Positions 4,839 to 32,442 of a stretch of DNA of 39,878 nucleotides are shown in pieces; the stretch's first letter is position 1, and each line of letters begins with the position of its first letter. The DNA comes from a virus. The stretch covers positions 1 through 39,878 of the IMG/VR virus record IMGVR_UViG_3300044617_001250; one strand, written 5' to 3'. The notes under the pieces were generated by a model. That model was not told the DNA's origin. It did no database searches and saw only the letters and a program-made list of their open reading frames with translations. Position numbers and translations under genes: made by a program.

Positions 4839-7800
4839 TCAGAGTCCGATGCGCTTACGGGTCTTCAGGCTATCAGCAAGTTCGCGGATTGTCTGCGCCC
4901 TCGCAGCCTTCGCGGTCCTTGCGTTGGACTCCTCAAGCTGGTCAGGGGTGACAAACTCATACTGATTGACTCGCTGGGTTTCATACTTGATCGGGGGCAG
5001 CTCGCGTGGGTTTGCGGCGACCCGCTCAAGGCGATCAATCTCCCTTGTGGTCTCACTGCGCTGGTATGGCACGGATCGGCCATAGGACAGAGGTGCGCCA
5101 GATTGATCGTAGTCAGACTCCGAAGAGAACCCGCCAGACTCCTTGCGAGAGTACCTGCCAGCAGGAACCGGAGGACTGTTTTTGTCATCAAGTCCTGGGA
5201 CATATAGATCATCTAGGTCATCGTTTGAGATGATCGTCCCCGGCTTATCAGGAACCCACAGCTCCATTCCCTCTTCCCCGATCCAGGCTGGCTCGTTGGG
5301 GGTAGGTCTGCCACCATCCGCAAAACCTTTCAAGCCAAACATGTTACCAAAGCCGCCTATGCCAGAAGCGACGCTGGAGATGCCACCAAAGATGGAGGCG
5401 ATGCCCATCAGGGTGTTGTAGGTGCCACCCTTGCCGATCATCTGGGCGCCGCCAATACCCATCGCAACACCGCTTAGGGTTTGGATGCTTGCGCCAGCGA
5501 ACTGGCCAATCTTCTTCAGCCTTTCGGACTCTTGATTGGCTGTCCTCTCCGCAGTCGATCCGGCCCTTTCCTGTGTGCTGGCGCTTTGGCCAAGGCTTGC
5601 ATTCCACATTTCAGTGGACTGGGATGCGCTAAGAAGCTTCTGGTCGAGCTGATAAACAGATTCTCCAACCTTGGAGAATTGGCCATTTAGATCAATCGTC
5701 GTAAAGCCAAGCTCGCTAAGCTGCCCCTCATATTTGAGTATCCCGTTGAGGGGCGAACCTTCACCGCTGGGCATGGATTGCTGAGCAGTAGAAAGCTGGC
5801 TCATGCGATTGTTGACAAGTTCCACAAGAATTTCGCTCATGTCAGGGCGCATTGCCTTGTCTGCTGCGGGTCCAACTGCGCCCAGTGGGGCTTTATTCTT
5901 GACCCAATCCAGTGCGTCAAGTCCAAAACCCTCCACCTCTTTTAGTGAATTCAGCGAATTAAGGTCTTTCTCGACAGCGACCTTAAATCTTTCGTAGTTC
6001 TCAACGGCACCCTTCACGACCTGTGGAAGGATCCCCTGCACCTGCTCAACGGCAAACAGTTCATCGGGTCCGCCCATCCCGGTGAAGGCGCCGGGGAGGG
6101 AAGACTGAGGACCTCTGTTCATTGAAGCAGGCGAACCGTATATCGCTTTGCGCAGTCTGTCGCTTGGGTCGAGCAGGTTTCCTGCGGGACCTCTTTGCTG
6201 CTTCCACCATTCATAATGAAGATGGCTGTTATTCCCGCCACCTGGCCGAATATCAGGGGTTATGACGCCAATTTGCTGACCAGCCGCAACAGACTGACCG
6301 GCTTCTACGCCAGGGGTCATGTGTCCATAGACTCCCAGCCTGTCGCTGTTGGCGTAACGAAGAACAACTGCATCGCCAGCTTTGCCGAAGCCCCTAATAA
6401 TGCTTTCGACTACAGCAGCCTCCATTGCGTGAATCGTGGTGCCAACGTCCACCCCAACGTCCCGCCCTTGATGTCCACGTCCAGCACCAAGCCCCTCGTT
6501 CCAGTTGGGCGGCAAACCGCTGCTCTGGGGGCCTACCGGGCTTACAGGAGAGAGATTGCTGAATTGGGTAATCTGCTGAGAAGCGGGAATTCCGCTTAGT
6601 CCAGGTCCCGGCACGATGCCATTAGCAGCCTGCGGCTGAACAGGTAGAGCGGCTGGGGCATTCTTGAGGAAGTGGTCTTTTATCGCCTTGAGGTCAGTGT
6701 AAATCTTCTCGTTAAGGTTGTTGATTGAATCAAGGGGCTTCAGCAGTGGATTCTTTTCGGCCTCAAAGCCAAGAAACTTCGCCATGTCCTTGAACATTTT
6801 TTCCTGCATTGGACGCAGGGTAAATTCAAGGATCAAGTCAAGAGCCCTATCCGCCGTGCTCTCCAAGAAGGTCTTAAGAGACTTGATCAAGCCCTCACCC
6901 TTGAGAAGCTCTTTGTTGAAGCTAATGAACGAATCAGTCCAGCCAGCTGCAAGATCGTTCAAGGCGTTGAGCGCCTCAAGCTTCTCCCTAAGCCTGTCAG
7001 TATTTGCCGCAGCCTCAAGAAGCCTGGTATTCAGTTCTGGATTGACTTGGATGCCACCAGACTCATTGATACGCTGAAGTTCTTTTTCATAAGCTGACGT
7101 GGGGCCAAGGAGATCGTTAATCGAGCCTTTGAGCTGATCAATCTCACCTGTGTAGCCACTTATGGCATCGTTGTAGAACCTTTGCGTAGGGGCAAGTTCC
7201 TCTAGTGCAATCTGTGCCTTGCGGTATCCCTCAAGCAGCTTCTCCAGCTCTGGGGTAACTGGGCGCTTTTGTCGAGCAAAGGAATTGCGAAGTTCTTCGT
7301 AGGATTGGTCAACGCCATCAATGATCGGTTTCAGGTCTCCGACCGCCACTCCATATTCCTTGACTGCATCAGACAGTGATGTGGCGAGCTGCCTGCCAGC
7401 GGTGAGCGCAATTCTGTCAAGTTGATTGACTAACTCTTGGGCATCCCCAGCTTTCACTAGGGCAACAAGCTGGTCTTCAAGCTCTTGGAATTGCCTGCTA
7501 AGAGCGACACCCCTTGCGAAGGCCCTATCAACGCCAGCAGTGCTTACGGATTTAGCTGAAATTGGCGCAACAGGGCGAATTTGCGCAGGAGGGGGCATGG
7601 CCTCCACCTCCTTGATCATGCCCAGGATTTCGTCAGTCGCTTTCCTGGTCTCCGCAACTCTCGTTTCCAGCACCTTTACTTGCGCATCTAGCACCGGGTT
7701 GCTCGGCAGGGAAGCGTTGCGCGTTCTCAGCGCCTCAAGGTCGATTTCATCCTGACTCCGCGAAAGAACAAGCTCCCTGGTAGTTGCCTTTAACTTAAGC

Positions 7801-10800
7801 GAGGCAATCTTCTTCTCAAATTCAAAAGTGTTCTTTGCCGCGTCCTCGTTTCTCCTGGCGATGTTCAGATTGATAGCCTGAATTTTCTCGTTTGTATCAA
7901 GATTTAACCTTGACACACTCTTGGCAATGTCAATTTTGAACTTACCAATCTCAATCTCTTGGTTAGCAAGGTCAAGCTCAAACTGTGCGCGGCGCTGCTC
8001 AATCTGGTCTTGCGCGGAAAGCTGAGCACCGAGATAGGTGCTAACAGCATCAGCAAGGCTGGATGCAAGCTCGTCACCAGCAAGCTCGCCCTGAATCGCA
8101 AGAGCAGCATTCCTGAATTGAGCCTGACGGATCTCGCCCTGCTTAACGATCAGGTCAATCTCTTTCTGCTTATTTTCTTGATTGATCTGAGAGACCCTAT
8201 TCTCTACGCTTTCACGAATGTCCGCAATCTGACGCTCGTAGTCACGGCGGGCTTCAAAAGCTTGGCGATCAATATCTTCCTGCTCTCTCTTGGCAGCAAC
8301 AATGCGCTGCTCAAAGCCTTTCAGGATGTCAATGCTTTCAAGCTCTCTGGAGACAGCCTGGAGATCGCGCTGGGCGCGAGAGACCTCAACTTCGGCCTCC
8401 CTTATCGCAGCCGACCTCTTCTCCTCCTCTGTCTGGGGAGTAGATGGGACAAAAGCCTCAAACTTGGCAAGAATTGCGGAGAGCTGGCCAAGTGTGGCAA
8501 TGCGGGCAACTTCTCCCTCGTCTGGCTCAAGATTTTGAGTGCCAAGCAGAGGAGACCTTACACGGAAGGGATTGAGTTGCCCTGCTTGAGCGACAGCCCC
8601 CAGAGTCTCTTGACGAAGTTGTTGAGCCCTCTCTGGCGGCAGCTGCTGTAACAAGAGCCCATATCTGTTGACCTTGTTGCCCTCTTCGACAACTCCAGAA
8701 ACCCAGTTGAGCAGTGCTGCAAGAGGGCCGGAAACAGCTTCTTGGATTTGAATACCAAGCTCAGCCATTGCACGCTTCATGCGATCACCAGCGTCAGCTG
8801 CGGCGCGAAGCCTGGAAACACCTTCTCCGCCAAGTTTTCTATTCAGCTCCGCCTGAATGATCGAATATGCAGCGGTTTTCTCGCCACCTTGAATCAGGCT
8901 TTCAACCAGCTTCTCCTGAGTCCGACTTGCAAGCAGTCCAGCTTCCTTGATCTGATCAAAGTTCCCCGTCAGGTCGCGGAGCATGTCCCCCGTGTCCTGA
9001 GCCGCCTGCATCAAGTTGTCAGCCGCCGTGCCAATCGCCGTGCCAGTCAGGGACAGGCCGAAGCCCAGCATCCCGCCAGCAGCACCGCCAAGAGCACCAC
9101 CAGCAGCACCACCAGCAGCCGCTCCAATGCCCTGCCCGAACAGGAGGGGGAACGCACCACCAATCAGGCCCTCGCTGGCCGCCCTGCCGCCCCTGACGCC
9201 TAACCGGCGGGTCAGGAAGTCGGCATCGGGATCAGTTCTTTGGATCTGGCGATTGACCCGAGCAATCGTGTCACCGATCTGATCGAAGCCTTTGTCAGTA
9301 GTCCGCATTCCAGCGCGAACCATTGTCAGAGTTTCCGATAGCAGCTCAAGCTCTCTTGTAGAAGCCTTGGAGACTTTCGCAAGATCATTTAGGCCCAGTT
9401 GTTGACCGGCCTTGCCAGCCGTAGCTCCAGTGCCAACGCTGCGGTTGAAGGTCTGAACGATTTGCTCAATTGCGCCTTCGGCACTCCTGCCGCCCATCAG
9501 CACGCGACCGGCACCGCCAGACTCTCGAATATCGCCAAGAAGACCAGAGAGAGTGTCCCGCCTGATACGTGGAAGATTCTCGCCGGAAATCTTTCTGAGC
9601 TTTGACTGCTTTTCCTGCTCTGCTGTTACAGATTTTTCGGCTGCAACCAAGGAACGAACGGCCTCAAGCTCGCGCTCAAGCTCTTGCAGATTATCTCTTG
9701 TAAGCTGGAAAGTAGACTGTTTGGCATTGTTTATCGCATTTTGCAGGTTTGCCTTGGTTTGTGCTACATTGACACCCTTCAGCTCAAGAGTGTTAAGCTG
9801 CTCCTGAAGCACTCGACTGGAATTGAGCGCCTTGCTTAGTCGGGTCTGAGCCTCTGCCGGGTCAATTGCGCCGCCCGCAGCCTTCTTGCTGGCAGCCATT
9901 CCAGCCCTTGTAGCCGCCAGCGCCTCTGCGCTCACTTTCGCGGCACGCTCAAATTCACGGAAATTGCCAGCCTGCTCAAGGGCGGGCAGTCTGCCAATAA
10001 ACATCTCGGCCCGCTGGAAGCTGACACCCTTGGCTCCAGCAGCGCGAAGCTCGTTGAGCTGCCTTTCTAGTTTTTCGAGCTTGAGAGTTCTGCTGACTTC
10101 CGCATCGAGCGCATCTTCCCTCTGGGAGGCAAGGGCAACCGCTGCTTTGCTCTGCTTTTCATTTTCCCTTGTAACAGCTTTGGAGGCATTTACTCTCTTT
10201 TTCTCCTGCGATTCAACTGACTTAGCAAGGCCAAGCTCTCGACCAAGCACCTCAACCCGCCTATTGGCAATATCCAACAGTTCACTGGCTCTTGCGGGGT
10301 CGCCAAAAGCTGCCTCAGAGGAGGCTCGGTTGATGATCTTCTGGAGGGAGGTTGTTTTTCCGCCTACAGGAGCTGCGAGCTGGCGAGGATCAACACCTTT
10401 TGTCGTGAGCTGGCGAAGCTTGAATTCGGCATCCTGTGCGCCCTTGGTTGCAGCGGCCCTTGCTTTGTCGGCGGCGGCAACATCTCTCGATGCCGAAGCT
10501 TGAAGCCTGGAGGCAGAGGCAGCGTCAAGGAGGGAGGCAGAGGCTCGCGCAGCAACACGGTCGAACTCGCCTAGATTGCCGCCCTGCTCAAGGCCGGGAA
10601 GTTTTCCGATGAGACCTTGAGCGCGTTGCAGGGCTGGTCCGCCTACGCCAGCGGCTGTCAGCTCCCCAAGCTTTCTTTGTAGGCCCAGGAGTTTATTGGT
10701 TCTAGCCGTTTGGCCGTCAAGAGCATCTTGCTCAAGCTTGTTGCGCTTCGCTACTTGTGTAATTACCGCTCTTTCCGCGCTCACAAAGGAGCGGGTATTG

Positions 10801-12872
10801 CTAAGTTGATCCTCAATCGCCTCTAGGCTACTCCTGTTCAGCTCAAAATTGGTTTTCCTGGTAGCCTTGAGGGCGGCTTCCAGTTTGATCCTTTCTTGCG
10901 CTACATTGACTCCTTCGACCTCAAGCGTGTTAAGTTGCTCCGTAAGCGCTCGACTGGAGTTGAGTGCCTTATTGAATCGAGTCTGGGCCTCTGCGGGGTC
11001 AATTGCCCCAGTAGCAGCCTTGCCGCCAGCGCCCTGTGATGTAGCGAGCTTTCCAAATCCTTTGGCAAAGCCCTGGAAGGCTTCAAATATGCCCCTGCCC
11101 GTGATGGCACTTGTACTCGCCTCTGCCAGTGCTTCAACAAACTTCTGACCAACGGGCTTGGCGGCCTTCTTGATGAAGTCGGATTGGATCTCGCGCAGAG
11201 CGGTAGATGCTTCTTCGGCGGTTCTGCCAATCATGCCCTCGCCAGCGGGTCTTGCGCCGCCCCTGAATCGAGGCAGAGAGGGGTCGCCAGAGGGCAGAGC
11301 AAGCTGAGCAGGGCCAAGGCCGCGTTCACGACGCTGGGCCTCGTTGAACGCTTGTAGGCGACTAGCCTCCTCAAGTGTAATTTGCTTGTTTTGGGCGATT
11401 TTACCTTCAATCTTGGCGATTCCCTTCTGAAAGCGAGAGATGGTCGCCGTGCTTTTGTTTTGTCGTGTCAGCGCAGAGCTAGTAGCAGAAAGTAGATCCG
11501 AAGCCTGCTTGCTGACGCGATTAAATTCACCAAAATTGCCAGCTTGCTCAAGCTCAGGCAGCCTCGCCACCAGGCCCTCAGCACGTTGAATCGCAAAGCC
11601 ACGGGCGCCGCCGCCGCGAAGCTCATTGAGCTTTCTTTGCAGGCTGTTGAGTTTGTTGGTTCTGTCAACTTCGGCGTCAAGTCCGCCCTCTCTCTCTCTT
11701 GTGATGTTTCTCTGCAGTTTTAATTCTCTTTCTCTTGCGGCAATCGTTCTTTCAGCACCCTTTAACACCTCCTTTGCTGTTTCTATGTCTCCGGCATCTC
11801 TTAGTGCCCCGGCCCTTTCCAGGGCAGAATTAACCCTATCAAGGGTTCTTGGTTCAATCGCTTGTTCTGCTACAAGTCGATCCCGTCGCTCACCAAGCCT
11901 GCGAGAAAAATCGAATCCCTCCCTGCGACCCCTACCAGTCCTGAGAGCCTCCCGCAACCTCTCCGCAAGGCTGCCTTGCTCTGTAACCAGCCTGGCCCTT
12001 GTCGTCTGAAAGCCGCCCGATCTAGCGGCAACTTCATTGAGTATGTCGTTAATCTGGTCCCTGACTGCACGCGCCTCTGGTTCTTGGCGCCCTGAGCCCA
12101 CCTCTCCCATTATTCTCCTAGAGGCAAGCTCACCGCGCAGCATTCTTATTCGCGCAGCGGCTCCCGAACGCACAGCCGCCTCAGCCTCCTCAAGTCTGTC
12201 CAACTCGACAGACCTGAGCGAAGCCGATTGGCGAATTTCGGCAAACCTTTGCCTTAATCCAGACGTGGGCCTGTCACCAAATTCAGCCCCGGTGCCAAGT
12301 CTTTCTATCGCTTCTTCGTACCTAGCTCGCCTTGTATTTGTCGTTCTTATTGCTGACCTGTTTCGTGTTTGCCTGAGCTGACGCGCCATTTCATTGGCGT
12401 TTTGGCGAATCTGATCCGCGTAATCACCCTGAGCGTCAATAAGATTGTCGAATTGCCGTCGAAGTTCAGTGCGGCGAGTTTCCTCTACTCCACTTTGCTC
12501 CATTGCGGATCGAGTTCTCTGCTCAAGCCGCCGCCTTTCTGTGGCTCTTTCGCGCAGTTCGCGGCGAATTGCCGTAGCTCTTAACCTGAGACTGCTTCTT
12601 GTTGCGGCTGTCTCGGCCTGGCTCGCACCAGCCCCAGAGCCAAGATCCATCTCCAGCTGACGCGCTCTCCTTGCTTGTGTGCCAAGCCTGCGAGTACCCT
12701 GTGTAAATGCTCTTTGCTCTGCACCAAGGGCTTGAAGTCTCTCTTCCGCGCCAGCGAGACTTTGATTTAGCTCGTCAACTCCACGAGCGGCGTCCCTTAG
12801 CGCCCTGTCAAGATCCCTTATTCTATCGCCACCGGATATTTGAATCTGAATCGTTTCTCTGTTGACCGCCAC
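4839..12872 (-). CDS. Giant tape-measure protein with M23 peptidase domain
   Basis: A 2,677-residue tape-measure protein, about three times lambda gpH, directly after the frameshifted tail chaperone. The N-terminal third is charged coiled coil rich in Arg/Glu/Ala. Residues about 400-1,075 contain repeated modules. A Gly/Ala-rich hydrophobic stretch around residues 1,235-1,290 (LLFGQGIGAAAGGAAGG) is the likely membrane-insertion segment. A second coiled-coil block follows. Residues about 2,120-2,240 are an M23 zinc endopeptidase domain: H2134-Q-G-R-D2138, then YGHM, then H2217-L-H2219-Y-E, the usual metal ligands. The start is GTG with no clear ribosome-binding site. Its role is to set tail length and, after injection, to open the cell wall. 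At about 0.15 nm per residue (lambda relation) the tail would be near 400 nm. Confidence 0.93.
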   Translation of the reverse strand: MAVNRETIQIQISGGDRIRDLDRALRDAARGVDELNQSLAGAEERLQALGAEQRAFTQGTRRLGTQARRARQLEMDLGSGAGASQAETAATRSSLRLRATAIRRELRERATERRRLEQRTRSAMEQSGVEETRRTELRRQFDNLIDAQGDYADQIRQNANEMARQLRQTRNRSAIRTTNTRRARYEEAIERLGTGAEFGDRPTSGLRQRFAEIRQSASLRSVELDRLEEAEAAVRSGAAARIRMLRGELASRRIMGEVGSGRQEPEARAVRDQINDILNEVAARSGGFQTTRARLVTEQGSLAERLREALRTGRGRREGFDFSRRLGERRDRLVAEQAIEPRTLDRVNSALERAGALRDAGDIETAKEVLKGAERTIAARERELKLQRNITREREGGLDAEVDRTNKLNSLQRKLNELRGGGARGFAIQRAEGLVARLPELEQAGNFGEFNRVSKQASDLLSATSSALTRQNKSTATISRFQKGIAKIEGKIAQNKQITLEEASRLQAFNEAQRRERGLGPAQLALPSGDPSLPRFRGGARPAGEGMIGRTAEEASTALREIQSDFIKKAAKPVGQKFVEALAEASTSAITGRGIFEAFQGFAKGFGKLATSQGAGGKAATGAIDPAEAQTRFNKALNSSRALTEQLNTLEVEGVNVAQERIKLEAALKATRKTNFELNRSSLEAIEDQLSNTRSFVSAERAVITQVAKRNKLEQDALDGQTARTNKLLGLQRKLGELTAAGVGGPALQRAQGLIGKLPGLEQGGNLGEFDRVAARASASLLDAASASRLQASASRDVAAADKARAAATKGAQDAEFKLRQLTTKGVDPRQLAAPVGGKTTSLQKIINRASSEAAFGDPARASELLDIANRRVEVLGRELGLAKSVESQEKKRVNASKAVTRENEKQSKAAVALASQREDALDAEVSRTLKLEKLERQLNELRAAGAKGVSFQRAEMFIGRLPALEQAGNFREFERAAKVSAEALAATRAGMAASKKAAGGAIDPAEAQTRLSKALNSSRVLQEQLNTLELKGVNVAQTKANLQNAINNAKQSTFQLTRDNLQELERELEAVRSLVAAEKSVTAEQEKQSKLRKISGENLPRIRRDTLSGLLGDIRESGGAGRVLMGGRSAEGAIEQIVQTFNRSVGTGATAGKAGQQLGLNDLAKVSKASTRELELLSETLTMVRAGMRTTDKGFDQIGDTIARVNRQIQRTDPDADFLTRRLGVRGGRAASEGLIGGAFPLLFGQGIGAAAGGAAGGALGGAAGGMLGFGLSLTGTAIGTAADNLMQAAQDTGDMLRDLTGNFDQIKEAGLLASRTQEKLVESLIQGGEKTAAYSIIQAELNRKLGGEGVSRLRAAADAGDRMKRAMAELGIQIQEAVSGPLAALLNWVSGVVEEGNKVNRYGLLLQQLPPERAQQLRQETLGAVAQAGQLNPFRVRSPLLGTQNLEPDEGEVARIATLGQLSAILAKFEAFVPSTPQTEEEKRSAAIREAEVEVSRAQRDLQAVSRELESIDILKGFEQRIVAAKREQEDIDRQAFEARRDYERQIADIRESVENRVSQINQENKQKEIDLIVKQGEIRQAQFRNAALAIQGELAGDELASSLADAVSTYLGAQLSAQDQIEQRRAQFELDLANQEIEIGKFKIDIAKSVSRLNLDTNEKIQAINLNIARRNEDAAKNTFEFEKKIASLKLKATTRELVLSRSQDEIDLEALRTRNASLPSNPVLDAQVKVLETRVAETRKATDEILGMIKEVEAMPPPAQIRPVAPISAKSVSTAGVDRAFARGVALSRQFQELEDQLVALVKAGDAQELVNQLDRIALTAGRQLATSLSDAVKEYGVAVGDLKPIIDGVDQSYEELRNSFARQKRPVTPELEKLLEGYRKAQIALEELAPTQRFYNDAISGYTGEIDQLKGSINDLLGPTSAYEKELQRINESGGIQVNPELNTRLLEAAANTDRLREKLEALNALNDLAAGWTDSFISFNKELLKGEGLIKSLKTFLESTADRALDLILEFTLRPMQEKMFKDMAKFLGFEAEKNPLLKPLDSINNLNEKIYTDLKAIKDHFLKNAPAALPVQPQAANGIVPGPGLSGIPASQQITQFSNLSPVSPVGPQSSGLPPNWNEGLGAGRGHQGRDVGVDVGTTIHAMEAAVVESIIRGFGKAGDAVVLRYANSDRLGVYGHMTPGVEAGQSVAAGQQIGVITPDIRPGGGNNSHLHYEWWKQQRGPAGNLLDPSDRLRKAIYGSPASMNRGPQSSLPGAFTGMGGPDELFAVEQVQGILPQVVKGAVENYERFKVAVEKDLNSLNSLKEVEGFGLDALDWVKNKAPLGAVGPAADKAMRPDMSEILVELVNNRMSQLSTAQQSMPSGEGSPLNGILKYEGQLSELGFTTIDLNGQFSKVGESVYQLDQKLLSASQSTEMWNASLGQSASTQERAGSTAERTANQESERLKKIGQFAGASIQTLSGVAMGIGGAQMIGKGGTYNTLMGIASIFGGISSVASGIGGFGNMFGLKGFADGGRPTPNEPAWIGEEGMELWVPDKPGTIISNDDLDDLYVPGLDDKNSPPVPAGRYSRKESGGFSSESDYDQSGAPLSYGRSVPYQRSETTREIDRLERVAANPRELPPIKYETQRVNQYEFVTPDQLEESNARTAKAARAQTIRELADSLKTRKRIGL
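9625..11040 (-). repeat. Two-copy protein repeat B in the tape measure
   Basis: Two copies of a module of about 88 residues lie at about 10770-11040 and 9625-9905. Both start with GAIDPAEAQTR, continue with KALNSSR, EQLNTLE and GVNVAQ, and end with a helix carrying SFVSAE or SLVAAE. They alternate with repeat A in the order A-B-A-A-B, which points to duplication of blocks larger than one module. Confidence 0.8.
9945..11660 (-). repeat. Three-copy protein repeat A in the tape measure
   Basis: Three copies of a module of about 50 residues lie at about 11517-11660, 10557-10700 and 9945-10085. Each begins with a KL..LQRKL.EL or KLEKLERQLNEL helix, followed by QRAE/QRAQ, a LP.LEQ.GN turn and EF.R. 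The copies differ at many sites, so these are old duplications rather than assembly duplicates. Repeat of coiled-coil modules is a way a tape measure can grow in length. Confidence 0.8.
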
Positions 12873-22997: not shown

Positions 22998-24401
22998 TCA
23001 ACGCCAGCGACCACCGTGACCAGCTCTTGCACCAGCCCGTAGGAATACTTGCCAAATCAGATACCTAAGAGCATCTCCTGGGTGTGAGTAATCAGTAGCA
23101 CCACCCTTTGCGGGCTTGAGCGTTTTAGAATCGTAAGACCATCGCTCGGTCGCGCTTATGGTGCTCTGGCATGTCGTCGGGTTGATCAAAACCAGTCCAC
23201 GGTGCATGTGAACATTGGCATGTGCAAGTGTTTCCGCGATGGGCGGATTCCTGCGCTCAGTCACCACCTGGATACCAGCGGATCTGAGAATTTCATGATC
23301 ACTCTGGGTAGAGGATGTTGAATCGTGGGATCCACTGGCATCTGGGTAGCAGGTGATTTTCCCTCTTGACAGATGGAATGGGTATGTCTTTTGCAAATGT
23401 GCGACCAGAGCAAAAGTGTCCGCGACTTTCGATTCCGCAAAGCAATGGAGCTGCTGACCCTTTTGCCCCGGCCTTACAACTCCGTAAACAGCGTGGCACT
23501 GACCAACGTTGAAGTCAACTCCAAATACAATTCTTTCGCCCTTTTCTGGAAGAAAAACACCAGTCGTATGGAGTTCGCGGTTGAACTCATAAAACACAGT
23601 TGCCGACTCAAGATTGACAAACTCTCCATTCAGGTACGCCTTAATCAGCTGCGGATGATACTTCGTTTTGAGATCCTCCACGAATCCTGGATCTAGGTAT
23701 GGGTTGTCCTCAGACTTGCCCCTGTAAAGCTTTTTGTTGTCAGCTTTTTGTTCTTCAAAAAACGAGTACATCCAGCCATATCCTTCTGGCGTAGATGCAG
23801 CTACAATTTGAGGGCAGTTGCCAACACGAACACGACCCTGCAGTTTGATCATCGCCTTTTCGGCAATTTCCGCCCTTGTAGTATCTGTCTCGTCTGATGC
23901 AATAGATGCGGCGTTCACACCAATCAGGCGCTCAAAGTTCTCCATCGAGCGCAAGAGCACAGGGGTTTCCCCGCCGGGAAGATGTAGAGTGAAGACCGGA
24001 CGCGGAGACACCCTGAACGAGTGGGGAATCCCGTACTTCTCAAGTACAAGATTCCAAGTCGGAAGCGCTACGTCATCAATCAGTGGAATGGTCGGCTCAA
24101 GAAAGAGATGTGTAAAACCCTGAGACCGGAAACATAAAAGTAATTGTTTTACAACAAGGGAATAGCTCTTACCTGAGCCATAGCCCCCACAGAAACCTAC
24201 ATACTTATGATCAAAGTCACATACAAAATCTTTCTGATAGGGAAGTAGGTTATTAACCATGCGAGCTTCTGCCGCATCTACATCGAATGTGGTATTCGAC
24301 CTCCGCTTTAGCTTCTGCAGCAGTGTTGGATCGGAAAGTAGGCCAAGACCTCTCACTGCGGCCCTGTCTATGTAAGCGTTCGCCCTCGTTCTTCCCGGCA
24401 C
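22998..24401 (-). CDS. terL: Terminase large subunit
   Basis: A 467-residue packaging motor and nuclease. The ATPase half shows Walker A GGYGSGKS at residues 72-79, an acidic Walker B region ASIASDE with D170/E171, and the coupling motif AASTPEG at 201-207. The RNase H-like nuclease half shows GVDFNVG (D296), CYPDASG (D354) and DYSHPGDALRY (D437 and D443). It cuts concatemeric DNA and pumps it into the head through the portal encoded next. The start is GTG. No separate small subunit was recognised with certainty; the HTH protein just upstream is the best candidate. Confidence 0.95.
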   Translation of the reverse strand: MPGRTRANAYIDRAAVRGLGLLSDPTLLQKLKRRSNTTFDVDAAEARMVNNLLPYQKDFVCDFDHKYVGFCGGYGSGKSYSLVVKQLLLCFRSQGFTHLFLEPTIPLIDDVALPTWNLVLEKYGIPHSFRVSPRPVFTLHLPGGETPVLLRSMENFERLIGVNAASIASDETDTTRAEIAEKAMIKLQGRVRVGNCPQIVAASTPEGYGWMYSFFEEQKADNKKLYRGKSEDNPYLDPGFVEDLKTKYHPQLIKAYLNGEFVNLESATVFYEFNRELHTTGVFLPEKGERIVFGVDFNVGQCHAVYGVVRPGQKGQQLHCFAESKVADTFALVAHLQKTYPFHLSRGKITCYPDASGSHDSTSSTQSDHEILRSAGIQVVTERRNPPIAETLAHANVHMHRGLVLINPTTCQSTISATERWSYDSKTLKPAKGGATDYSHPGDALRYLIWQVFLRAGARAGHGGRWR

Positions 24402-26827: not shown

Positions 26828-27176
26828 TGCTTTGGGCCTCCCAGATGCCACGGGCCTTGCCCCGAGCAAACGCCTCCTTGATCAGCCACATCTCCCGCCT
26901 GACACCGGCATCCCGGTAGACCGGGGCATCACCCCGCAGGCTGCTCACAAGCTCCTCAGTGAGGTCCACCGGGGCCTGCGGGGTGATCTGAACCAGGCGG
27001 CCAAAGATGGCGCCCAGGCAGCGGCTGCAGGGCAGCAGCGGGCTCTCCGGCTCCAGCGCCTCAAGCGCTTCGGAAGCATCTGCGAAGCGCGGACCCACGT
27101 AGGATGAATCCTCGCACCAAGAGTTTCCTGTAGAGCGGTTCTCTATGCACTGAACATAATCTGGCCTTTCAGGCAT
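26820..27176 (-). CDS. Unknown protein with four Cys, GC-rich gene
   Basis: A 118-residue protein; ATG 27176 is chosen because GGGGA lies just before it. Cys occur in VQCIEN, SWCED and LPCSRCL, a possible zinc-binding set at the N-terminal half, followed by an alpha-helical C-terminal part (REMWLIKEAFARGKARG). The gene is clearly more GC-rich than those on both sides, which suggests later acquisition. Unknown function. Confidence 0.6.
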   Translation of the reverse strand: MPERPDYVQCIENRSTGNSWCEDSSYVGPRFADASEALEALEPESPLLPCSRCLGAIFGRLVQITPQAPVDLTEELVSSLRGDAPVYRDAGVRREMWLIKEAFARGKARGIWEAQSNA

Positions 27177-27432
27177 GATTCCCCTGGCTTGCATCTAGCA
27201 ATCTAGCTGACTGCTGCCAGGCCGAAGAATGAGCCCAGTATTCGCCAGCCCTTACACCTCGCCAATCCATCAAAAGTCCATCTTGTTTGCCCCATAAAAC
27301 CATGCCATGAATATCGCCATCAACCTTGTCTGGCTTGCGATTGTTAATCCAAACAGTCATCGTTAACAAGAGAAAAAGAATAAGTACGCTTAGCGCTGGA
27401 CTTGGACAGCAAAAGCCTCTAATGGCTCGCAT
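27169..27432 (-). CDS. Single-pass membrane protein
   Basis: An 87-residue protein, start ATG 27432. Residues about 8-29 (CCPSPALSVLILFLLLTMTV) form one membrane segment, then NNRKPDKVDG and a Trp-rich soluble part (MVLWGKQDGLLMDWRGV). The C-terminal end overlaps the next gene. Cys near the N-terminus is not in a clear lipobox. Unknown function. Confidence 0.55.
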   Translation of the reverse strand: MRAIRGFCCPSPALSVLILFLLLTMTVWINNRKPDKVDGDIHGMVLWGKQDGLLMDWRGVRAGEYWAHSSAWQQSARLLDASQGNHA

Positions 27433-27452
27433 TCTAACAAGACTGAGCAAGA

Positions 27453-29858
27453 TTATTTGTAGAATGAATCAGCAAGATCCTTGAGTCTACTTTCCCAGGA
27501 GTGGGCCTTCATTATTGCATGTATCTCCTCTGCGGAAAGATTTTGATCTTTTACTATAGCCGATCTAACATGCTTTGCGAATCTAGCATGTTGGCCAACC
27601 ATGCGAATCTGCGGCAATTGCGGCATATTCGGACAATTTGTTGCCACTATTGGAATACCAAGTGTCGCATAAACATAGCTCTTAAGAGGATTCATGTTTT
27701 CTGTTAGATCATTTGTTATGTGTGGTATAATGGCAACATCGAAAACCTGCAAATACAGCTTCAGGTGCATGTAGGAAACGGGGCCAATGTATTTAATGTT
27801 TGGCCTTTGTGGCAGATTTTCCGCCATGTGAGTGCTGCCAATCATTAGCACCAAGGCATCTTTGTTTTTGTCGGCTACGTGTTCGACAAGTGGCCAGTTG
27901 ATTTTACTTTCGAGATTTCCGGTATAACCAATTATGTAGCGCCAGTTCCCCGGTGAAACCAAGGACTCCCTCAACTCCTCTACCTTAGGGCCACCCTTAT
28001 AGATAAGGTCAACATCAACTCCATTCGGAACAAGGTGAGTCGGCTTGCTTGACAGCTTGCCAATGGAATTCATTGCAGGCTTGCAGTTGTAAACACTGCA
28101 ATCACTTTTTCCAAGGACTTGCGCATACTGCTCTGTAAGTTCCCTCTTCTTTTCTTCACTTGTGCCGGGCCAGGCTCTATGGTCGTCTACGATGTCAGCC
28201 ACGACATGATCAAAAGGCAGACTATCCAGTATTTCGACGGCATTACGAAAATGAGGGTAAACCCAGGCACCAACGAAGGAGCCAGGCAAATCCACAAGAG
28301 CCTCTTGCAAAGCATCCTTACAGTATTTTAGTATAAAATCTTTTTGCTGAGCCAAGTCCAGCCCAGGTGGCATCAATGGGGTCCAGACCGAAATCTTGTC
28401 AGTATCTAATAGACCGGCTCGTTTTTTTTGGATAAATTTATAGATTAGCCTAAAATGAGAATTTGAACTGTTTTTGTAGCGCTTAAGATCAAGAGTTGAA
28501 ACAGGTTTCTCGATGACGATCACACGAGATATGTCGCTTCTGGATGCTAGATACTTTACTACCATATCGACTCTTCGACCAAAAACGCCGAAGTCGTTTT
28601 GTTTCCAGAAAACGACAACAATCTTTTTTCTTGAATTTTTTTTGAAATTTAGCAGGGCATCCAGAATCCCACTAACGCTGTGCTTAACTGGTGGTAACAA
28701 CAGTTTTTTCATGGTTTCCGCGCCAGCATCAAATGAAAGCGTTTTAGCGAAAAGTTTAAGGTTGTACTCTTTGTCGGCCTTGCTTAAGGGGCTGCCAATT
28801 GTCGCCTTGATTGCAGGGGTTAAGTCATCGGCGGACTCAATCAGAGTAATCCCCTTGAAACCCATGTCAACAAGCATTGCCATAGGTTCTGTGCGCGAGG
28901 CTACAATTTGAACGCCAGCGGCCAACGCATCAGAGGCTTTCGCTGGCAACTGGTAGGCACTTGCTACAGATTTAACGTTTTGAAGCAAAACCACTAGATC
29001 AGCTTGCCTTACGCAAGACGGCACTAGGTCAAAAGACAGGCTCTCTATTAAAACAGCTTTTTGGCATGATCTTGTAATATCATTCTCAACTCCCCTGTCG
29101 GCAATAGTTCCAATATAAACTGGGGCAACTCCCTCAATTTGTTGGCAGGCTTTTGCGATCTCAACGACTCCCTTGTGTCGATTCGGCGTCCCAAGAAACA
29201 TTACAATTGAACCGTTTTTCTTGCGAGCCTCCTCAAGTTCACTAGGCAGGGGCTTTGGGGGTTCCGCAAAAAGATTTGGATCGCGCAAATGCGGTATTAC
29301 CTCGCCTCCATACATTGATTGCAATGGGGTATCGCAAGTAGTAATTCCATCGGCGCAGGAAATCACTTCCTGTGCAACCACGGTCCAAAAAGGTGAGTAC
29401 GGAGGTTCTTCTATATGCTTCGGCAGCTCTTGCAGTAGCTCAAGCGCTGTCATGCGCTTAAAAAGTTTCGACTCTGGAGCGCCTGCAACAAAAGATGGTT
29501 CGTAGTCATCAATGTCAACAATTAGGCGAGAGCCCGTCTTGCGCTTGATGCAATAGCCAAGCAGCAAAGAAGGTAGTCTAGCCTTGCAAGCGATAACTAG
29601 GTCGGTCTGTATTTTGCTTGATACTCGACTACAAATGCGAATTAAATCTTCTGTGTTTTTTGGCTCAGGCAGTGACGTAACAGAAGCCTCTCCGAGCGGC
29701 TGCCACACCGTATCCGAAATATGAGTAAAGCCAAAGCCAATAAGATCGACATGTGAGTAGAGCTTTTGAGCTGTCTGGGCAATTAGATGTGCTCGCCCCA
29801 AGCAGTTGTGATTAACATCCCAGGAGATGACTGTGCAACGGTATGGTTTCACTGCCAT
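27453..29858 (-). CDS. Tandem double glycosyltransferase (two GT-B/GT4-like domains)
   Basis: An 801-residue protein with start ATG 29858, behind AAAGGTG. Domain 1 (about 1-395) has IVMFLGTPNRHKGVVEIAKA and LPAKASDALAAGVQIVAS, the phosphate-loop and nucleotide-sugar-binding regions of family GT4. Domain 2 (about 410-801) has PNGVD, IIGYTGNLESKINWPLVEHV and NPLKSYVYATLGIPIVAT, the same set again. This indicates two active GT-B sites in one chain. The likely role is adding sugars to phage proteins or to host surface glycans. No signal peptide or membrane helix is visible. The gene is more AT-rich than the late module and is coupled by overlap to a small upstream gene. The acceptor is unknown. 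Confidence 0.85.
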   Translation of the reverse strand: MAVKPYRCTVISWDVNHNCLGRAHLIAQTAQKLYSHVDLIGFGFTHISDTVWQPLGEASVTSLPEPKNTEDLIRICSRVSSKIQTDLVIACKARLPSLLLGYCIKRKTGSRLIVDIDDYEPSFVAGAPESKLFKRMTALELLQELPKHIEEPPYSPFWTVVAQEVISCADGITTCDTPLQSMYGGEVIPHLRDPNLFAEPPKPLPSELEEARKKNGSIVMFLGTPNRHKGVVEIAKACQQIEGVAPVYIGTIADRGVENDITRSCQKAVLIESLSFDLVPSCVRQADLVVLLQNVKSVASAYQLPAKASDALAAGVQIVASRTEPMAMLVDMGFKGITLIESADDLTPAIKATIGSPLSKADKEYNLKLFAKTLSFDAGAETMKKLLLPPVKHSVSGILDALLNFKKNSRKKIVVVFWKQNDFGVFGRRVDMVVKYLASRSDISRVIVIEKPVSTLDLKRYKNSSNSHFRLIYKFIQKKRAGLLDTDKISVWTPLMPPGLDLAQQKDFILKYCKDALQEALVDLPGSFVGAWVYPHFRNAVEILDSLPFDHVVADIVDDHRAWPGTSEEKKRELTEQYAQVLGKSDCSVYNCKPAMNSIGKLSSKPTHLVPNGVDVDLIYKGGPKVEELRESLVSPGNWRYIIGYTGNLESKINWPLVEHVADKNKDALVLMIGSTHMAENLPQRPNIKYIGPVSYMHLKLYLQVFDVAIIPHITNDLTENMNPLKSYVYATLGIPIVATNCPNMPQLPQIRMVGQHARFAKHVRSAIVKDQNLSAEEIHAIMKAHSWESRLKDLADSFYK

Positions 29859-30118
29859 GGCATAACACCTTTCATACGACGCTCTACAAGTTGCAAAAGG
29901 GAGCACGGAATAACAGGTGGACGGGGAATCCAGTAAAATGGATTCCAGTGATCAAAACTCCAAAGAGCTGAAAAGACTTCAGCCGAGCCGCCCTGCTTGC
30001 TGAGAACAAAGTTCACGCGGCTACAAATTCGCTCGACATGGCAGCTGTCACCGGAGGCAAACCTAGACAGAAACATGACTTCGGCCCTGTCTCTTGAGGC
30101 GGGCGGGCTGTCTTTCAT
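29849..30118 (-). CDS. Small unknown protein before the glycosyltransferase
   Basis: An 89-residue protein whose stop overlaps the start of the glycosyltransferase, so the two are probably translated together. It is Arg/Phe/Trp-rich, with FVLSKQGGSAEVFSALW and HWNPFYWIPRPPVIPC. No family recognised. The frame is open only from ATG 30118. In another frame just upstream a coding-like stretch also exists, so the exact gene boundary is uncertain. Confidence 0.5.
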   Translation of the reverse strand: MKDSPPASRDRAEVMFLSRFASGDSCHVERICSRVNFVLSKQGGSAEVFSALWSFDHWNPFYWIPRPPVIPCSLLQLVERRMKGVMPWQ

Positions 30119-30136
30119 CAGGCAATTCGCGGTACG

Positions 30137-30157
30137 GGTTGAGCAGGTGACTCAACC
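30137..30157. repeat. Inverted repeat in the divergent intergenic region
   Basis: GGTTGAG and CTCAACC form a perfect seven-base inverted repeat with a seven-base spacer between the leftward small gene and the rightward cluster. It could be an operator or a weak hairpin. Confidence 0.5.
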
Positions 30158-30228
30158 TTAGCAAAGACTCGACCAGAAGAACAGGCTCCGGTTTACCAGA
30201 GAGCACGACATCATCAAACTCAAATCTA

Positions 30229-30258
30229 TTGACAAAACCTGAGGGACGCCGCTATGGT
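30229..30258 (+). promoter_or_regulatory. Sigma-70-type promoter for the rightward cluster
   Basis: TTGACA at 30229-30234, an 18-base spacer and TATGGT at 30253-30258. It lies 32 bases before the preferred start of the first rightward gene. The -35 is perfect; the -10 matches four of six. Confidence 0.55.
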
Positions 30259-30289
30259 TGGTACGCTCCACCAAAGCGGCAATTACTGT

Positions 30290-30526
30290 ATGGGTGAGTT
30301 TGATGTCAAAAATTTCCTTCTTGAGGAGATTGAGTTCTGCCAAAAAATGCAGATGAGAATCACGAAGATAAGGTTGGGTACGTCGGCATTTGCAAACCTC
30401 TGCTCATACGGCTATCCGCTAAAAAAGGAGACAGGGCTTCTTGTTTTTGGTATTCTTTGCGAAGTCGTCGGACATGGAAATCCATGGGCAGTCGGCTTTG
30501 AGCGTGAGCAAATTCAAGAAGGTTAA
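30290..30526 (+). CDS. Unknown first gene of the rightward cluster
   Basis: A 78-residue protein; ATG 30290 is taken as start because it follows the promoter at a normal distance, with an in-frame ATG at 30254 lying inside the -10 element. It reads MGEFDVKNFLLEEIEFCQKM and then has two hydrophobic strands (GLLVFGILCEVV). Three bases separate it from the next gene. Unknown function. Confidence 0.5.
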   Translation: MGEFDVKNFLLEEIEFCQKMQMRITKIRLGTSAFANLCSYGYPLKKETGLLVFGILCEVVGHGNPWAVGFEREQIQEG

Positions 30527-30529
30527 ACC

Positions 30530-30742
30530 ATGGAAAAACGACCCATCTTTCAACCAGAAGATTTTGTAATGACACAGGCTGAGGGTGAGCCTGAAGTAAT
30601 GGAAACGGTAAAAAGCCGAATCGGCAACTATGCCATACTGTCCGGTGGTATCAAGTTTCATGTTCTTGATGACCATCGCAAGGCCGGTGGCTTTTGGTAT
30701 CACAAACCAACGGAAACGAAAATCAAGCTTATCGGAGCCTGA
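30530..30742 (+). CDS. Unknown small protein
   Basis: A 70-residue protein with start ATG behind AAGG. It reads PIFQPEDFVMTQAEGEPEV and NYAILSGGIKFHVLDDHRKA with a beta pattern and ends Lys-rich. No family recognised. It ends two bases before the next start, as in an operon. Confidence 0.6.
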   Translation: MEKRPIFQPEDFVMTQAEGEPEVMETVKSRIGNYAILSGGIKFHVLDDHRKAGGFWYHKPTETKIKLIGA

Positions 30743-31301: not shown

Positions 31302-31862
31302 ATGGAACAAGCTTCAAAAACTGTGCCAGACCCAGCTTACAAAGCAGTCGGACGTGAAATCAGGTTTTTCAGCAATCTGCGTCAAAAGCTCTACGATCTT
31401 GCAGATGTTAGTGAGCTATCTGACAAAGATATTGACTTCTTGATTTCCGAAAGCCGGAATACAATAGTTTCAGTCAGTCTTGTAAAAGCGGAGGCTCACG
31501 AAAAGATTAAGAATGGTGAGCGGGTGGACAAGCTTTGGCTAAAGCGTGTAACCTATAAATACAAGGCTGTAAAAGCCTTCATGTACGGCCTGCAAGAAGA
31601 GAAGGGGCTTCGATTTATCTCAAAAACGCCTGAACTACTGGAGGAGCTTCGGCAAAAACTTATTGAAAATGACACGCCAGAGAGCGAGTCCGCCAAGGTG
31701 ATTGACGGAGCTATTAACAGTGCAATTTCTCCTAGGAAACAAGAGCTTGGAATTTTCATGGAGCTAGTCACCAAGGAAATCGGCAACCAAAGATTTCAAG
31801 AGTTGAGGCAAGAAGCACGGGACAGGTCGCATGACAGCTGCTTGGCGACTCCAGAAAACTAA
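31302..31862 (+). CDS. Unknown helical protein, 186 residues
   Basis: A largely helical, charged protein: REIRFFSNLRQKLYDLADV, DIDFLISESRNTIVSVSLV, and the helix ELLEELRQKLIEN. No family recognised. The C-terminal end crosses the possible upstream start of the next gene. No membrane segment. Its length and position put it in the same transcript as the HNH and SLOG genes. Confidence 0.65.
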   Translation: MEQASKTVPDPAYKAVGREIRFFSNLRQKLYDLADVSELSDKDIDFLISESRNTIVSVSLVKAEAHEKIKNGERVDKLWLKRVTYKYKAVKAFMYGLQEEKGLRFISKTPELLEELRQKLIENDTPESESAKVIDGAINSAISPRKQELGIFMELVTKEIGNQRFQELRQEARDRSHDSCLATPEN

Positions 31863-31869
31863 GTGCGCA

Positions 31870-32442
31870 ATGAGCAAAATATACGCTGGCATCGGCTCAA
31901 GAAAGGCTCCACCTGATGCCTTAAAGCTTGCACGCTTGATCGCCAGCGCAATGGAAAATGGTGGTTGGAGGCTTCGCAGTGGCGGCGCCCCAGGCATGGA
32001 TGCAGCTTTTCAGCGCGGAGTCAAATCAAGCAAAAATAAATGTATTTATCTACCTAGTGGACTGTTCAGTGACAATGCTGCGGGTCAGGGTGGCTGCATT
32101 GATGCAAGCACATTACCAGCATTCAAGGCAGCACTTGCAACAGTTGATGAATACCATCCAAATCCAGCAGCGCTTTCCTCTTTTGGTAGGCGGCTGATGG
32201 CTCGTAACGCTTTTCAGGTACTGGGACCCGATCTTGAAACTCCAGCGGATTTGATAATTTGCTGGACGCCAGACGGAAAAGCAAGTGGCGGCACTGGCCA
32301 AGCAATACGGATTGCTGAAGCACATGGAATACTGGTTGTCAACCTTAAAAATCCAAGGCACTGCGAGGCTTTTACACAGGCCATTGAAGAATGCAAAAGA
32401 AAAAGTAAAGAGGCAGCTTTTGGCAGGATCAAGCTAGGCTGA
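31870..32442 (+). CDS. SLOG-fold (DprA/Rossmann-like) protein
   Basis: A 190-residue protein with the marks of the SLOG superfamily: YAGIGSRKAPPDAL at 5-18, the nucleotide-binding loop RSGGAPGMDAAF at 36-47, KCIYLP, and later DLIICWTPDGKASGGTGQA at 127-145 with GILVVNL. Members bind nucleotides or nucleotide-derived ligands (DprA, LOG, TIR-associated sensors). Phage copies have been linked to signalling in defence and counter-defence, but the role of this one is unknown. ATG 31870 is used; ATG 31831, overlapping the previous gene, is an alternative. Confidence 0.8.
   Translation: MSKIYAGIGSRKAPPDALKLARLIASAMENGGWRLRSGGAPGMDAAFQRGVKSSKNKCIYLPSGLFSDNAAGQGGCIDASTLPAFKAALATVDEYHPNPAALSSFGRRLMARNAFQVLGPDLETPADLIICWTPDGKASGGTGQAIRIAEAHGILVVNLKNPRHCEAFTQAIEECKRKSKEAAFGRIKLG

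Follow-up and report, generated by a model that had tools for sequence, protein, structure and literature searches.

A phage-borne tandem GT-B glycosyltransferase gene with bacterial polysaccharide-type kin, shared as accessory cargo by two unrelated freshwater phage groups

What use does a phage have for two glycosyltransferase (GT) modules joined in one protein, and where did they come from? The question is raised by a gene in IMG/VR record IMGVR_UViG_3300044617_001250, of which the whole 39,878-nt stretch analysed here (hereafter the window) is part of a 109.7-kb parent contig. The 801-residue chain announced in a preliminary description of this DNA was borne out: the plus strand of 27453-29858 is interrupted by many stops, and the minus strand reads as a single frame from 29906 to 27453, with an ATG at 29858, a stop at 27453 and 801 codons in between. 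Two further metagenome contigs carry the gene at 100% protein identity. Its parts are as follows (residue numbers refer to the protein).

27453..29858, minus strand: tandem glycosyltransferase gene, 801 aa (ORF reading, Pfam, full-length relatives)
28647..29858, minus strand: N-terminal GT-B module, residues 1-404 (PF00534, PDB profile matches, model)
27456..28646, minus strand: C-terminal GT-B module, residues 405-801 (PF13692, own model, Foldseek)
29169..29198, minus strand: N-half donor-site loop FLGTPNRHKG, residues 221-230 (H228 and K229 nearly invariant in the alignment)
28914..28955, minus strand: N-half EX7E region YQLPAKASDALAAG, residues 302-315 (Asp310 replaces the second Glu)
28593..28607, minus strand: C-half signature WKQND, residues 418-422 (almost unchanged among relatives from phages and bacteria)
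28176..28196, minus strand: C-half first-domain signature DIVDDHR, residues 555-561 (D555, D558, D559 and R561 invariant in the alignment)
27888..27929, minus strand: C-half donor-domain loop GYTGNLESKINWPL, residues 644-657 (alignments)
27657..27695, minus strand: C-half EX7E region MNPLKSYVYATLG, residues 722-734 (Val729 replaces the second Glu)

Both halves were recognised by Pfam, the N half as Glycos_transf_1 (PF00534; residues 211-353, 3.5e-9) and the C half as Glyco_trans_1_4 (PF13692; two stretches in the protein, the best at residues 643-748, 9.8e-11), with scores above the curated cut-offs (42.5 bits versus 27 and 36.9 versus 26.4). The full-length AlphaFold model, built from a 19-row alignment, reached a mean pLDDT of 83.6 and a pTM of 0.61, its secondary structure following two successive GT-B modules; modelled alone, the C half reached 88.8 and 0.87, respectively. 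Foldseek matched the latter to PimB' (1.5e-12), MshA, BshA, HepE and WaaG, and a sequence profile of the N half (residues ~128-388) recovered MshA, PimB', BshA and sucrose-phosphate synthase from the PDB, where a single-sequence search of the protein gave one chance match only. Hence, a GT-B fold is predicted in each half, and the earlier claim of two GT-B modules in one chain, for which structure prediction of both halves had been proposed as a check, stands on Pfam and on these models. The halves are not a recent internal duplication, since BLASTP of the protein against itself returned no second alignment. PimB', MshA, BshA and HepE resemble each half in the GT-B fold (and the N-half donor domain in sequence), but they are single-module GT4-type retaining transferases with a canonical EX7E motif (in place of Y/D and N/V in the phage halves), and identity to them is only ~10-16%. 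The arrangement had also been called unusual for a phage, which is only partly right: chloroviruses and giant viruses have multi-GT proteins, and matches of the full model included giant-virus proteins with tandem group-1 modules as well as long proteins from uncultured Caudovirales, so that having several GT modules in one viral protein is not unique.

All motifs quoted in the preliminary description are present (FLGTPNRHKG at 221-230, LPAKASDALAAG at 304-315, GYTGNLES at 644-651 and NPLKSYVYATLG at 723-734), yet calling them two complete GT4 sets was too strong. The canonical EX7E motif is a hallmark of GT4 enzymes, and it is absent from both halves: with the second glutamate located five residues before a conserved glycine, the two glutamates correspond to Y302 and D310 in the N half, and to N721 and V729 in the C half. 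We therefore file the protein as GT4-like and not as a GT4 member. The valine recurs at the same position in most bacterial relatives (a distant TuaH-like GT, L051, has the glutamate), and the comparison thus indicates that the departure in the C half is a property of the family and not damage in the window phage. Because the C half is without the canonical glutamate, the two-step glycan proposed earlier is doubtful.

The same replacements (N721 and V729) are what favours a reading that is independent of what the target may be, namely that only the N half is catalytic and that the C half is a pseudo-glycosyltransferase which binds the acceptor or stabilises the enzyme. We rate this somewhat short of an even chance, as the C half is predicted to fold as a full GT-B module, is better conserved than the N half between the two phage groups described below (54% versus 48% identity), has the lower dN/dS within the second of them (0.10 versus 0.15) and occurs in bacteria without this N half. 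Moreover, EX7E variants can remain active, and the N half departs from the motif as well.

The search for relatives led to bacteria. Full-length relatives at 28-33% identity were found in Sphingobium, Sphingomonas, and Hydrogenophilales and Pseudomonadales MAGs, and a Nitrosomonadales MAG encodes one of nearly full length; those of Sphingobium sp. RAC03 (WP_069063890.1), the Hydrogenophilales MAG (L013) and Sphingomonas (L015) keep the same module order over nearly the whole chain. Phage and bacterial tandem proteins have the signatures SWDxxHN, WKQND, DDxR and NPLKxYVY in common, but the bacterial forms are longer (open frames of ~1000-1530 aa) and usually bear an extra N-terminal region, whereas the phage form consists of the two modules only. 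The family is rare (of 398 genomes sampled from the phylum, 3 matched at 1e-25, and one of these had defined the sample), and a scan of genome contigs for exact peptide patterns matched only Pseudomonadota and one Acidimicrobiales genome. Single modules also occur outside the pair. The bacterial genes sit in polysaccharide or glycolipid loci, next to methyltransferases, an alginate-lyase-family protein and BNR_4 (one relative is fused to a sulfotransferase domain), and the cluster of the Sphingobium relative holds pyruvyl transferases, a GT-A enzyme, an acyl carrier protein, a fatty acyl-AMP ligase and a P450. Among NCBIfam models, the best matches of the C-half donor domain were the teichuronic acid transferases TuaH (NF047676, 3.5e-14) and TuaC (NF047684, 1.2e-11), at 52.5 and 44.2 bits against cut-offs of 550 bits, i.e. 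outside those families. Judging by these comparisons, the tandem GT is not a phage invention and derives from a bacterial polysaccharide-type enzyme family. Trees of the N half and of the C half agree: in each, the phage copies all group together (100/100), at the end of a long branch. Since both give the same clade, a single entry of the already fused pair into phages is probable, an inference drawn from a small sample.

The phage copies come from more than one kind of phage. A relative at 51% identity is encoded by at least 16 IMG/VR contigs of a second, unrelated group, whose terminase, portal and capsid families differ from those of the window phage; among 50,697 records of phage isolates there was one partial match only. 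Taken together with the trees, this distribution indicates that the gene has crossed between two lineages of freshwater phages that are unrelated to each other. We then looked at the insertion sites, for which the following features of the window are needed.

22998..24401, minus strand: terminase large subunit (phrog_2, 6.8e-29), the marker for finding related phages
27169..27360, minus strand: left flanking gene, kept by relatives that lack the GT (ATG 27360, MTVWINNR..., is probably its true start)
30530..30742, plus strand: right flanking gene, 70 aa, kept in relatives without the GT
27361..30529, no strand: accessory interval (related phages have both flanking genes with only ~100-400 bp between them)

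The GT gene was found in none of the 20 records gathered through their related terminases (some of which may be fragments), and in six relatives (L069, L071, L075, L076, L094 and L096) the two flanking genes lie adjacent without it. An equivalent empty site exists in the second group, where the genes flanking its own GT are kept without it in L105, L107, L111-L114 and others, in phages whose sigma factors are 83-96% identical; in that search the gene was absent from 13 of 16 records and all three positive controls were recovered. Given the empty sites in both groups, and the purifying selection that the dN/dS values show for each half, the gene is optional accessory cargo, inserted at two different sites and with both halves maintained. 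Presence and absence between syntenic relatives, the criterion for a phage moron, is what is observed here. The acquisition suspected earlier from AT-richness is thus upheld by empty sites in related phages of both groups, and not by base composition: the GC content of the gene (45.3% versus 52.1% for the window) is low but not extreme, about 4% of the 2.4-kb stretches in the parent contig being equally AT-rich, and as proof of acquisition it is weak, given that the GT genes of the second group (64.5-64.9% GC) are close to their flanks.

In several related terminases (L078:3340-5187, L081:5761-7638, L087:7705-10182, L089:7705-10182 and L094:9001-10866) the Walker A motif is split by an insert that is in frame and resembles an intein (GGYG / CVAGET...HN / SGKT), and the window terminase is uninterrupted (GGYGSGKS). 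Elsewhere on the parent contig (G001), an RtcB-like RNA ligase (L007:11285-12505) has an intein-containing RtcB model as its best NCBIfam match, below the cut-off. Within the window, a 2677-aa ORF at 4839-12872 with a Peptidase_M23 domain (residues 2133-2226) is probably the tape measure protein, from its size and position, and a 203-aa ORF at 31831-32442 has a weak DprA/SLOG-like match (1.5e-4, below the cut-off). A scan of the GT gene for consensus promoter and terminator sites, compared against shuffled sequence, yielded no more than the shuffles predict. The gap that separates the GT stop from the neighbouring left-flank gene (27361-27452) contains TTGCTCAGTCTTGTTAGAATGCG, which by eye resembles a TTGACA... 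region that lies upstream of the same left-flank gene in phages without the GT, and may be a kept promoter.

The empty sites also bear on whether the enzyme glycosylates the capsid or tail proteins of its own phage, with one sugar added per half. The window GT is the first gene of a minus-strand run leading into the terminase, portal and capsid genes, and there is a precedent in A111/114R of chlorovirus PBCV-1, in which three GT domains build a capsid glycan (PMC7826918). Like the giant-virus multi-GT proteins, A111/114R has several GT modules in one protein; however, these belong to eukaryotic viruses and resemble the phage GT by fold only. We regard this use as unlikely: relatives whose capsid proteins are 74-94% identical are without the gene, so that the virion can do without it, and the second group has it in an early/replicative region, near helicase, methyltransferase and exonuclease genes and not among structural ones, a position that makes a connection with virion assembly less convincing. 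The bacterial kin in polysaccharide-type loci also speak against it.

A small ORF just upstream had been presented as coupled to the GT and as a possible partner.

29849..30118, minus strand: 89-aa ORF with a 10-nt overlap with the GT start, gene status unconfirmed

It matched no family, and its relatives were confined to copies of the same phage. In the second group a different ORF overlaps the GT start, and the upstream ORFs there do not match the 89-aa one; a conserved partner at this position is thus not supported. Discarded was also a DUF551-like reading of the upstream ORFs, suggested by eye, for which Pfam gave no match.

The host is probably a freshwater cyanobacterium, as far as gene similarities tell. 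The nearest isolates by terminase are the cyanophages KBS-S-2A and S-H1 (~40%), and among the matches listed for the helicase of the second group the top-scoring one is the freshwater Synechococcus phage S-LBS1. On the parent contig, a sigma factor encoded beside ThyX (L010:15644-16582) has TIGR02997, a cyanobacterial RpoD-like family, as its best match (below the cut-off), and the second group has a similar sigma factor.

We reason that the gene, a moron coding for a tandem GT-B, GT4-like enzyme of bacterial polysaccharide-type origin, may serve to alter a surface glycan of the infected cell, a reading to which we give an even chance. Made in the infected cell, the enzyme would extend an envelope glycan of the host, or a glycolipid precursor, by one or two sugars, and the changed surface would either reduce the adsorption of competing phages or protect released progeny from loss on debris. 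More of the GT4 donor motif is kept in the N half, which would make it the likelier catalyst; the C half may serve as another transferase whose donor site is altered, or as a module for acceptor binding or regulation. The gtr genes of phages P22 and Sf6 modify the O-antigen and block adsorption (PMC11436027), and in cyanobacteria (Nostoc) phage resistance has often been mapped to genes for surface glycosyltransferases (PMC12507012). The possible common role with gtrABC is that of a phage-borne glycosyltransferase cargo, but gtrABC comprises three genes, with a flippase and a bactoprenol transferase, and none such was recognised beside the window GT (the neighbours tested with Pfam and PHROGs gave no flippase or GtrB-like match). 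Surface conversion is best known from lysogeny, and no integrase was seen in the annotated part of the parent contig.

A target other than surface polysaccharide, i.e. DNA (by base glucosylation) or a small molecule (a metabolite or glycolipid), seems distinctly unlikely to us. Phages do glucosylate DNA (PMC4691112), and the acyl carrier protein, fatty acyl-AMP ligase and P450 near the Sphingobium relative suggest a glycolipid-like product; against this, the examined parts of the parent contig showed no base-hydroxymethylating gene, and the enzymes matched by fold are GT4 transferases that act in envelope or metabolite pathways, not DNA glucosyltransferases. A bolder reading of the protein as a whole, which we consider improbable, is that the halves act in sequence and furnish the host surface or the virion with a disaccharide specified by the phage, the C half using a donor site that can do without the EX7E glutamate, and that this is a competition gene spreading among unrelated freshwater phages.

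Whichever glycan is its target, this is a real, selected and horizontally moved tandem GT-B gene, a phage-borne addition both to the GT4-like transferases and to phage cargo genes. It makes a clean case of a cargo gene that two unrelated phage groups carry at different, unrelated sites and that relatives of either group lack there, and the natural pairs of phages with and without it allow its benefit to the phage to be tested by comparison. Its product, a compact two-module GT-B enzyme, also lends itself to the question of whether sugar transfer is still possible for a conserved module that lacks the EX7E glutamate.
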